Shown here one piece after another: positions 19,101-25,100 of a stretch of DNA of 64,000 nt. How positions within the stretch are numbered: position 1 is the first letter of the stretch; the number at the start of each line of letters is the position of its first letter. The notes under the pieces are model-generated. The model was not told where the DNA came from. It saw nothing but the letters and a program-made list of their open reading frames with translations, and made no database searches. Source of the DNA: Apostichopus japonicus (Eukaryota > Echinodermata > Holothuroidea > Aspidochirotida > Stichopodidae); the NCBI RefSeq assembly GCF_037975245.1, contig NC_092582.1, positions 392,001-456,000 of the forward strand. Reading direction: 5' to 3'. The translations under genes were made by a program, and so were the position numbers.

Positions 19101-22100
19101 ATCAATAATATGTACAGTGCAAAGAATCTAACAGCAATTTTAAAACTGGCAAGGGCAATCAACTGGCCTGTGGAATGAATACCAAGGGTAAGGATGCCTA
19201 CATAAGAGGTATGTCGAGTGAATACCAAGGGTAAGGATGCCTGCATAAGAGGTATGTGGAGTGAATACCAAGGGTAAGGATGCCTGTATAAGAGGTATGT
19301 GGAGTGAATACCAAGGGTAAGGATGCCTGCATAAGAGGTATGTCGAGTGAATACCAAGGGTAAGGATGCCTGCATAAGAGGTATGTGGAGTGAATACCAA
19401 GGGTAAGGATGCCTGTATAAGAGGTATGTGGAGTGAATACCAAGGGTAAGGATGCCTGTATAAGAGGTATGTGGAGTGAATACCAAGGGTAAGGATGCCT
19501 GCATAAGAGGTATGTGGAGTGAATACCAAAGGTAAGGATGCCTGTATAAGAGGTATGTGGAGTGAATACCAAGGGTAAGGATGCCTGTAGAACAGGTATG
19601 TGGTATTTACTGATATGCCAAGCTATATAGGAAGCTGTTATTGTCATGAGGTGATAAGGCTAATTAACAGCTGACTGCACCAATTTAACCAGAAATCCAG
19701 AGGGCTTTTTGATTCCTCACCATATAATTTTCTCAAAATTCCACTTAACTATTTGACGAAGGTAGAGAGAGTGACTTAAATTTGTCTAAGAATTAAGTGA
19801 GAATCAGAACAGATCAGATATTTCTAGCGCATATTTGTAGCATTCACTTGTGTGCATCAACCAATGAATTCAGTAGTAAGGTTTTTACAGTAGAGACTTT
19901 TATTCCAAAATGCTTCAATATCCTGACAGAAAAGTTTTCCTATATGATAGTTTGATGCAAAACTAAACAACTGAAATTGACCAAACTACAGCATGTTCAC
20001 CAAAAGAAAATCATAGCATCAGATAACTACCAGATTAATTGTAGCTGTAATTTAAGAGTTATCATGTTTTCAAAGATGTTGACCTTATGTAACCTTTGAC
20101 TTCTACCAATTTCAATAAGGTTCTCATAAAGCTGGATCTACATACTATGTATCAAGTCATATACTTTTTGAGTTATCATGTTTACTAGGTTTTCAGACTA
20201 TGACATATGTTGACTGCAAATTACCTTTCCACCAATTTCAATATGATTTTTGCACTCAACAAGCTGGATCTACTTACCAAATAAAAAGGTCAACAAGGAT
20301 GTACTTTTTGAGTTACAGTGTTTACAAAGTTTTTCAGATTTTGACCTCTTTGGACCCTCACAGAAAGGGTTCTTGTACTCAATAAGACAGATTCACATAC
20401 CAATAATGAGGTTAATCCACTATGATCTTTGAGATTTAACATACAGTTCATAATAAGGTGTCATGTAAACACACCCACACAACCCATTACCATCCATTGT
20501 TCACAATATTCATATATTGAACAATGTACTAATTACTTGAGTGGAAGACCAGTGTGCATCTGCTGAGTGGGTGTTGGTAAGCTGCACAACATCCAACAAA
20601 TAACAACCTCACTACTCCTTGGAAGACACAAAGCTCATTGAGCTCCTGCACCAATTACATCAGTGCTTCCACTCATTACTTAATACCAACAATGTCAATA
20701 TTCATTTTGATTTGGCAAACATAACTGTAATTTGTTTTCTTCATAATTCTAACCTTGGCCTGCATCTGAGCCAGGAGTTCCAATGACTTGAACACATCGA
20801 GGGGTCCTCAAATCCCATATCCTGACAGTACTATCTTGTGAACCAGACACTACTATCTCCTCAGAAGAGTACAATGATAACACATGTCCTGAGAATGACA
20901 ACAACAACAAATGAGTAAATAATGCACTATGTAAAGAACTATGTGATAACATTCAAATGTTGATAAACAATATTTAACAACCATAAATGATAGAGCTGTA
21001 ATGCTATAAATTATTTAATGCAATGATCTATCCATTAAGAACCAAGTTAATAACACTTATCTCATGCAGCCAATTTACTTACATAAGCGAAAAAATGGTG
21101 TATGTGCAAGTAGCTCATACAACTTGTGACAGTCTGTGACATAGATATCAGACTCAAGTACCCCATCAACCTATCATAGGTTACCTGTGTGTCCAGACAT
21201 AGCATGCATAGGTTGTCCCTTCTGGCAGTCTGTGACATAGATATCAGACTCAAGTACCCCATCAACCTATCATAGGTTACCTGTGTGTCCAGACATAGCA
21301 TGCATAGGTTGTCCCTTCTGGCAGTCTGTGACATAGATATCAGACTCAAGTACCCCATCAACCTATCATAGGTTACCTGTGTGTCCAGACATAGCATGCA
21401 TAGGTTGTCCCTTCTGGCAGTCTGTGACATAGATATCAGACTCAAGTACCCCATCAACCTATCATAGGTTACCTGTGTGTCCAGACATAGCATGCATAGG
21501 TTGTCCCTTCTGGCAGTCTGTGACATAGATATCAGACTCAAGTACCCCATCAACCTATCATAGGTTACCTGTGTGTCCAGACATAGCATGCATAGGTTGT
21601 CCCTTCTGACAGTCTGTGACGTAGATATCAGACTCAAGTACCCCATCAACCTATCATAGGTTACCTGTGTGTCCAGACATAGCATGCATAGGTTGTCCCT
21701 TCTGACAGTCTGTGACGTAGATATCAGACTCAAGTACCCCATCAACCTATCATAGGTTACCTGTGTGTCCAGACATAGCATGCATAGGTTGTCCCTTCTG
21801 ACAGTCTGTGACATAGATATCAGACTCAAGTACCCCATCAACCTATCATAGGTTACCTGTGTGTCCAGACATAGCATGCATAGGTTGTCCCTTCTGGCAG
21901 TCTGTGACATAGATATCAGACTCAAGTACCCCATCAACCTATCATAGGTTACCTGTGTGTCCAGACATAGCATGCATAGGTTGTCCCTTCTGGCAGTCTG
22001 TGACATAGATATCAGACTCAAGTACCCCATCAACCTATCATAGGTTACCTGTGTGTCCAGACATAGCATGCATAGGTTGTCCCTTCTGGCAGTCTGTGAC

Positions 22101-25100
22101 ATAGATATTGCAGTCCCCAGCTCCACCACTGATGAGAGTTGCCCCTCTGGTTGCACTGCTCTGGAATATTACATCTCGTACGGTGCCATCATGAAAGGCC
22201 AGATCTGTGTCTGGACCTGAACAGACATAAAGATTATTACATTACATTATTTCAACTATGGTAAGGTCTGTACTATTGACCATCACTGAGGGTAGCAGGG
22301 TATTAATACAGACTACTATCTTTATTACAGAATTCACTACACCAACCGAGTGGTAGTTCATATTATTTTAGATGGCAGTTGATCAAACTAAGCACCAAGT
22401 TAGCTTTTGCAGAAAAGAGAAAATGAATCTACATATCCAGTATAAACAATGCCATACAATTCTAAATATTTTGCAAAGTAGTATTCGTCACATGCAAACT
22501 AAAACCTAAAATGTCAAAAATATTCATTATTCATTCAAGAATAATTGAAGTTGGCAAGTCAAAATATCAGCTGTATTGTAAAAGGACTTTAGTATTGCTT
22601 TGATTGGTCAATGCTGTTTATCAGGCTCTGCATTCCATTAATTAGTACCTCTTTATATGCATTTTCATTCCATACAACCACAAATCCAATTAGCTGCCAA
22701 TCTGAAAATTTTACAGGAAACATGACAATTTTAGAAGGAACAGTTTAACTTTGCATTTCAATCCAGTTTCAATTTCAGTAAGGAGTTCTTGAATTTCCAA
22801 CTCCATTCTATATTTTCAAATATGTTTTAGTAAGGAGTACTTGAAGTTCCAACTCCATTCTATATTTTCAAATATGTTTTAGTAAAGAGTACTTGAAGTT
22901 CCAACTCCATTCTATATTTTCAAATATGTTTTAGTAAAGAGTACTTGAAGTTCCAACTCCATTCTATATTTTCAAATATGTTTTAGTAAGGAGTACTTGA
23001 AGTTCCAACTCCATTCTATATTTTCAAATATGTTTTAGTAAGGAGTGCTTGAAGTTCCAACTCCATTCTATATTTTCAAATATGTTTTAGTAAGGAGTAC
23101 TTGAAGTTCCAACTCCATTCTATATTTTCAAATATGTTTTAGTAAGGAGTACTTGAAGTTCCAACTCCATTCTATATTTTCAAATATGTTTTAGTAAGGA
23201 GTACTTGAAGTTCCAACTCCATTCTATATTTTCAAATATGTTTTAGTAAGGAGTACTTGAAGTTCCAACTCCATTCTATATTTTCAAATATGTTTTAGTA
23301 AGGAGTGCTTGAAGTTCCAACTCCATTCTATATTTTCAAATATGTTTTAGTAAGGAGTACTTGAAGTTCCAACTCCATTCTATATTTTCAAATATGTTTT
23401 AGTAAGGAGTACTTGAAGTTCCAACTCCATTCTATATTTTCAAATATGTTTTAGTAAGGAGTACTTGAAGTTCCAACTCCATTCTATACTTTCAATTCTT
23501 TCAGTAAGGAGTGCATGCAGTTCCACCTCCATTGTGACAAATTAGTTGCTTTAACTCCGTTGGTTACATTGTTAGTCTTCAAATGTTTTAACAAAATTCA
23601 GGAAATTATATGTTCACCATTGGATTTACCCAATAATTTTTAATGATGGTTCTCAACTAATGTGTACATGTAAATTTTTGATTCAAAGCAAAATACGACG
23701 ATTATAATAAGGAGTCTAAGCAATACAGTACATGTATGGCTTTGATTCATACCTAATGTACATCATTAAAAGAGTTTAGATCAAACTGGATGAATTAAGT
23801 TTGTCATATGATCCAGCAGCGATCAGTGTGTGATTCCTAGCAAGCATTACATTAAAGTTTTATACATACCCACAACATTACAAGACTTTGGATCAAACTG
23901 AATAAGTTTAAAAGGTTTGTCGTGTGATCTAGTAGCAATAAGTGTGTGTTTCCTAGCAAGCATTACATTAAAGTTTTATACATACCCACAGTATTACAAG
24001 AGTTTGGATCAAACTGAATAAGTTTAATAAGTTTGTGGTTTGATCTAGTAGCAATAAGTGTGTGATTCCTAGCAAGCATTACATTAACGGTTTATACATA
24101 CCCACAGCATTACAAGAGTTTGGATCAAACTGAATAAGTTTAATAAGTTTGTGGTTTGATCTAGTAGCAATAAGTGTGTGATTCCTAGCAAGCATTACAT
24201 TAACGGTTTATACATACCCACAGCATTACAAGAGTTTGGATCAAACTGAATAAGTTTAATTAGTTTGTCATTTGATCCAGTTGCAATGATGTTGTTATGA
24301 GGACTCCAAGCGATGCAGTAAATAGAGCCTTTGTGGTGTCTCATACGCTTAAATAAAACGGTGGGTTGGTGAGAGTTATCACTTCTGCAAAGAGATGCAA
24401 ATAATATTGTTCAAATAAATATATGTTTTATTTCTTGAACTTACCTTACTTCTTCTCTGGGATGTTCCCGTAGTACCTTCACCAGTTCCATTACCTAGCA
24501 ACATTACATGCAACATTATACTTCAAGTGCAAATTCTCAGATGGGAGTAATTTCACATACACTTTACTGTTAGTATCAAAGAAACATAGGCTTCAAATTT
24601 TACTCTTAAGTTTTGAGCCTTAATGGTAATATATGCAAATATGTAGCAATAAATGTTTAACTTTAAAATGTCTTTAATGCTAATGTCCATCAGTGTTGCC
24701 ATCAATTTGTATAAACATACTTTCCTTTAGGTTCTCAAGATTGACATGAAGATGATTGATATAGAGCGGGCAAATATGCTTTGAGGAAAGCTGTAAATTG
24801 TTTGTTGAAGATTGAATGACTATTCTTTGACTGTTTAGGATAGTAGAGGTCAACGCTGATGATCTTTAGGAAGTACTGAAGCTACATATGAAGGATTTAA
24901 TATAGTAACTAGTAACTAAGGGCTAGAACATGGCTGATAATTATCACCACAAAACCAGTGTAACATATAACCAGAAAGTCACCTTGGTTTAGTGATTCTT
25001 TGCCACATTTTGTATTTGAGAATATTTGACAGTAACCATGCCTACAAAATCCAAATAAATTCCAGCTTCTTCATCCATTTATGAGGAAAGAATATTTCAA

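Follow-up and report, generated by a model that had tools for sequence, protein, structure and literature searches.

Copies of the VNTR in the human CBS gene are used as splice donors. A report on the CBS gene describes a 31-bp unit, c.1444_1467+7(16_21), that comprises 24 exon and 7 intron nucleotides, and also a second variant, 844ins68, that is a 68-bp junction duplication (PMC2630376). Intron gain by tandem duplication likewise involves duplicated splice-signal sequences, some of them in segments that extend over an exon boundary (PMC4974935). In C. elegans, the intronic CeRep25B minisatellites have been linked to alternative splicing (PMC4039745). Among titles and the opening lines of abstracts in the open-licence literature, we found no genome-wide report of splice-junction repeats, and listings of open-licence papers on sponge and sea cucumber minisatellites showed nothing on the anatomy of junction ladders.

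A junction-spanning array of this kind is present in the WDR47 gene of Apostichopus japonicus, within the window (the whole stretch of 64,000 nucleotides that was analyzed). At positions 21123-22108, TRF identifies a minisatellite with a period of 96, 10.3 copies, 99% matches, and a score of 1923, and the array is therefore not a product of chance. Read on the minus strand, each 96-bp unit consists of 60 nt of exon (22108-22049) ending at the donor and 36 nt of intron. An earlier note on this DNA had divided the unit into 62 + 34 nt; exon end and intron start are indeed its two parts, but the copy-by-copy comparison places the exact split at 60 + 36. Ten donors, placed every 96 bp between 22049 and 21185, all carry the 9-mer CAG/GTAACC (the slash marks the junction), in agreement with the description in the same note of an authentic donor followed by a ladder of about ten copies in identical local context. 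The authentic donor ACACAG/GTAACC (22040-22051, minus strand) has its exon end at 22049 and its intron start at 22048. The nine decoy donors (21176-21965, minus strand) have the same sequence and follow exon-like ends at 21953, 21857, 21761, 21665, 21569, 21473, 21377, 21281, and 21185.

In the copy-by-copy comparison, copies 1, 2, 6, 7, 8, and 9 match the exon copy at all 96 bp, and the differences in copies 3-5 are confined to unit positions 8 and/or 20. Near-identical copies are of the kind that assemblers can miscount, and the array might thus be an artefact of the assembly. This explanation is extremely improbable given the linked variants in copies 3-5 and the diverged, older ladders found elsewhere in the genome (73% at locus L157 and 89% at locus L080). 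Furthermore, if the assembly was made from PacBio HiFi reads, as we infer, an artefact is unlikely because such reads should span 1 kb. A search of the genome assembly with a method that leaves very common words aside places the array at one site, and its unit is not found at other places in the manner of a dispersed satellite or transposon family.

The gene was named WDR47 in the earlier note, and protein matches confirm this assignment. An upstream 396-aa reading frame matches the Pfam profile PF25602 WDR47_COR (E 4.8e-28) and PDB 7wej, WD repeat-containing protein 47 (E 9.7e-100). Joining the exons 24382-24218, 22216-22049, 20888-20754, and 19082-18862 yields a single open WD40 frame (frame 2). 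The exon that borders the array (22049-22216, minus strand) is 168 nt long and ends in SGHTG, and its final 60 nt are array copy 0. In the joined frame it lies between a preceding WD40 exon (DNSHQPTV...SCNAVG; 24218-24384, minus strand) and a following one (20754-20888, minus strand). Splice sites were scored with a PWM trained on the A. japonicus genome under study, which gives 6.79 for the acceptor at 22216 (TTCAG/GTC) and 6.04 for that of the following exon (TCTCAG/GAC).

Judged by its sequence, the WDR47 array is of the CBS kind in anatomy, and the use of several of its donors would be conjecture. In both genes, as far as the available CBS text describes, the last exon nucleotides and the first intron nucleotides are tandemly repeated and the donor is repeated with them; the WDR47 unit thus has the donor plus flanking exon and intron bases that characterize an exon-intron boundary VNTR. 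The CBS unit of 24 + 7 nt is present in 16-21 copies, whereas the WDR47 unit of 60 + 36 nt is present in about 10. Copy-number polymorphism is known for the CBS VNTR according to that text, whereas the WDR47 array has been read from one assembly. The 844ins68 variant, as described there, resembles the WDR47 array in that an intron/exon junction is tandemly duplicated and one copy still works. In intron gain by tandem duplication, a new intron is made, whereas the WDR47 intron pre-existed. Its splice sites do not both derive from the duplicated segment: the acceptor at 20888 sits outside the array, so that the intron is not one gained by duplication, and no AG within the unit scores above -0.2. 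CeRep25B is likewise an intronic minisatellite with a proposed effect on splicing, but the available part of its description gives it no exon-end origin and does not present it as donor-bearing (PMC4039745).

The authentic donor at 22049 is weak, with a PWM score of 1.87 where sampled donors scoring >3 have a median of 5.66, and no other donor scoring >3 was found between 22300 and 20800. Read-through past this donor gives SGHTGNL followed by two stops (G-N-L-stop-stop), and the in-frame TGA that had been reported just past the first donor is therefore present. Among the ten donors, the exon-proximal one alone keeps the frame open into the following exon. Use of any decoy would produce a premature stop, as is characteristic of a regulated alternative 5' splice site or poison extension; a step of 96 nt keeps the frame, yet the stop comes earlier. 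We also considered a pseudo-exon of 45 nt that extends from CACAG to the donor and is open in frame. It was rejected as the main reading on the scores of the AGs in the unit, which fall far short of those of the two adjoining authentic acceptors.

The account that we consider probable is that a minisatellite was born across an exon/intron boundary and has been tolerated while the exon-proximal donor is used. The array would have begun with tandem duplication of a segment that chanced to straddle the boundary of the WDR47 WD40 exon. Later growth and homogenization on the intron side may then have produced the ten near-identical copies. Since all extra copies sit on the intron side, the original exon and donor are intact. 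Splicing most likely stays with the exon-proximal donor, the nine decoys would leave with the intron, and the ladder is probably near-neutral. The weakness of the authentic donor is a counterpoint to this account, since it would favor donor competition, and low-level use of distal donors that depends on copy number is possible.

The earlier note had gone further and raised a possible length-variable splicing switch. In this reading, U1 picks among the ten donors, a distal pick leads to truncated or decayed mRNA, and the length of the array tunes WDR47 output. Several features are compatible with this proposal, including ten identical donors in 60 nt of identical exon context, a weak authentic donor in a region with no stronger one, and the TGA just past it. 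The human CBS gene offers a precedent for a donor-spanning VNTR, as described in the available text (PMC2630376). How common the same anatomy is at other exons also bears on this proposal.

The preceding WDR47 exon is the source of a second donor ladder (23760-24287, minus strand), which TRF describes as 116 bp x 4.6 copies with 91% matches. Its unit contains the end of that exon, TGG/GTATGT, and about 24 nt of intron, and its four downstream copies all have GT (8/8 GT cells). This ladder is older than the 96-bp array. A third array (18357-18829, minus strand) starts in the intron some 35 nt past the donor of WD40 exon 19082-18864 and was not counted as junction-spanning. At 19169-19603, 87 nt upstream of a WD40 exon, is a 43-bp array whose sense units carry an acceptor-like CTCTTATACAG/GC. 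At 43011-45479 and 60404-61501 are arrays with units of 51 and 75 bp, both multiples of 3, that have long open frames on the minus strand. In total, 25 minisatellite arrays make up 34% of the window (1-64000), and sampled loci contain 7.2% and 4.7%; with such a density in the window, arrays that straddle boundaries are to be expected. The window is located no more than 0.46 Mb from the end of a contig, in an assembly of 671,581,487 bases in 35 contigs, for which the longest and shortest numbered chromosomes met are 46.04 and 18.20 Mb.

The wider occurrence of this anatomy was assessed in 231 conserved-domain exons of the same genome, comprising 115 WD40, 54 Ras, 27 mitochondrial carrier, 16 AAA, and 19 DEAD exons. 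The WD40 exons are 115 of the 150 matches listed; two matches are in the window, and the remainder, which were long frames or stood lower in the list, were left out. The 54 Ras exons are internal exons, one per paralogue cluster, among the matches listed, and the other sets use 27 of 100 Mito_carr, 16 of 19 AAA, and 19 of 49 DEAD matches. Inspection by eye identified copies of the donor junction within the following intron for 13 of the 231 exons (L015, L020, L062, L072, L080, L093, L112, L157, L163, L168, L106, L130, and L181), and copies of the acceptor junction in the previous intron for five (L021, L051, L100, L188, and L202), counts that are not fully independent because the exons come partly from shared genes. 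The donor cases differ in quality. Copies at L072 and L106 are decayed, and a copy-count threshold detects none there; L130 and L181 have a single extra copy each; and at L020, L093, and L112 the exon part of the repeated unit is just 4 to 11 bases. On the acceptor side, the intron end and first exon bases are repeated within the preceding intron at L021, L100, L188, and L202, and the copies at L051 contain the intron end and AG only. The arrays of L187, L200, L201, and L214, four array-bearing loci of the third set, span no junction.

Two of the donor loci deserve separate description. At L015 (1699-3111), a 35-bp unit with the strong donor GTAAGT (GCTGATA/GTAAGT) is repeated about 40 times behind a WD40 exon, in an array that is more striking than the WDR47 ladder. 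At L093, the exon appears to end at AAAG/GCACGT (sense, ~732-740), and the 83-bp units repeated in tandem after it have AAAG/GTACGT, a sequence arrangement that probably represents a GC donor followed by stronger decoys.

In an automated test, each donor junction, taken as [-40,+15], was compared by alignment with the 400 nt of intron that follow it, with a mirrored procedure for acceptors, and a score of >=44 was required. After removal of junctions that lacked a donor or acceptor call >1 or had only a short flank, 182 donor and 184 acceptor junctions of the 231 exons were left. Copies were detected for 9/182 donors and 3/184 acceptors. In a null with mismatched exons (first two sets), the corresponding values were 0/1500 and 0/1580, and no score reached even 30. 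The first two sets also supplied plain intron windows, which were examined with a threshold of 40 and 250 nt. On the donor side, 14/146, 14/143, 14/143, and 14/134 windows were duplicated, and on the acceptor side 6/155, 6/155, 9/154, and 10/151. At this same threshold and length, donor junctions of these two sets gave 8/149 and acceptor junctions 1/157, although the finding that donors are not above baseline is a weak comparison because the donor-side windows include some of the junction arrays. Junction duplications are thus real and frequent, without enrichment over intron windows. An apparent clustering of arrays at donors in the first WD40 set was considered as a candidate enrichment and not upheld, in view of short flanks, baseline windows that are as often duplicated, and a third set with 0/32.

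The rate of junction copies is not above that of plain intron windows, and therefore the ladders look like a genome-wide by-product and not like a special device. This also leaves the proposal of a length-variable switch at WDR47 unsupported. The same anatomy occurs at the preceding exon and in the 13 sampled cases, it turns up across unrelated exons of housekeeping type about as often as intron windows are duplicated, and the frame is open from the exon-proximal donor only. We therefore consider the switch unlikely, and favor a tolerated minisatellite born across the boundary.

A difference between donors and acceptors would call for a different emphasis. Donor junctions might be hot spots for minisatellite birth, or acceptor duplications might be purged by selection, and either process would leave polar ladders. 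A bias toward donors would fit a situation in which an extra donor past the right one is ignored and an extra acceptor ahead of the right one is harmful. The first two sets pointed in this direction (p = 0.017 and 0.009), with copies at 9/150 donors versus 1/158 acceptors in the second of these comparisons (Fisher p = 0.009). However, the third set, which was taken as the test of this idea, showed the reverse (donor 0/32, acceptor 2/26). With all sets combined, p is 0.086 for the automated counts, which is not significant, and 0.096 for the 13 versus 5 cases recognized by eye. Polarity was consequently downgraded from a finding to a rival explanation, and we hold it to be doubtful.

The state of the decoy donors was examined at the 11 loci with countable copies, L093 being left out. 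Of 178 GT cells, 175 are intact; L015 supplies 76 of the 178, and cells are not independent. The decoy donors are not being eroded. Intact GT cells are expected if decoys are harmless, and they could also mean that there is a reason for keeping the copies, but they are equally explained by gene conversion or by the youth of the arrays. Another reading is a U1 decoy, in which U1 snRNP is retained by the ladder on the nascent intron, which is thereby shielded from premature polyadenylation or spliced more slowly, with the copies unused as donors. Consistent with this role, the donor 9-mers in the copies of these 11 loci are kept at least as well as the flanking bases (770/797 identical cells, compared with 1384/1462 for exon and 1125/1243 for intron), but the excess is small, the cells are not independent, and one locus dominates. 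Moreover, a U1 decoy does not predict arrays that span acceptors, yet four of these exist (L021, L100, L188, and L202). We judge this role very unlikely.

Arrays of this kind are already known from CBS, and the point of interest is their frequency in the A. japonicus genome, where junction-spanning minisatellites look like a common by-product. Several percent of junctions with tandem self-copies (13 donor and 5 acceptor cases among 231 exons), with up to about 40 GTAAGT donors at L015, might amount to a genome-wide experiment in donor competition with variable copy number, in which array length shifts isoforms or nonsense-mediated decay at some loci including WDR47. We regard this possibility as rather unlikely. 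Identical donors in identical context that differ in position alone provide the cleanest natural test of 5' splice site choice. If several percent of junctions carry ladders of varied length and age, RNA reads could be enough to measure positional preference, and individuals that differ in copy number could show whether decoys cost anything. What WDR47 itself teaches is modest: where minisatellites are dense, an array that looks striking can be an ordinary by-product.
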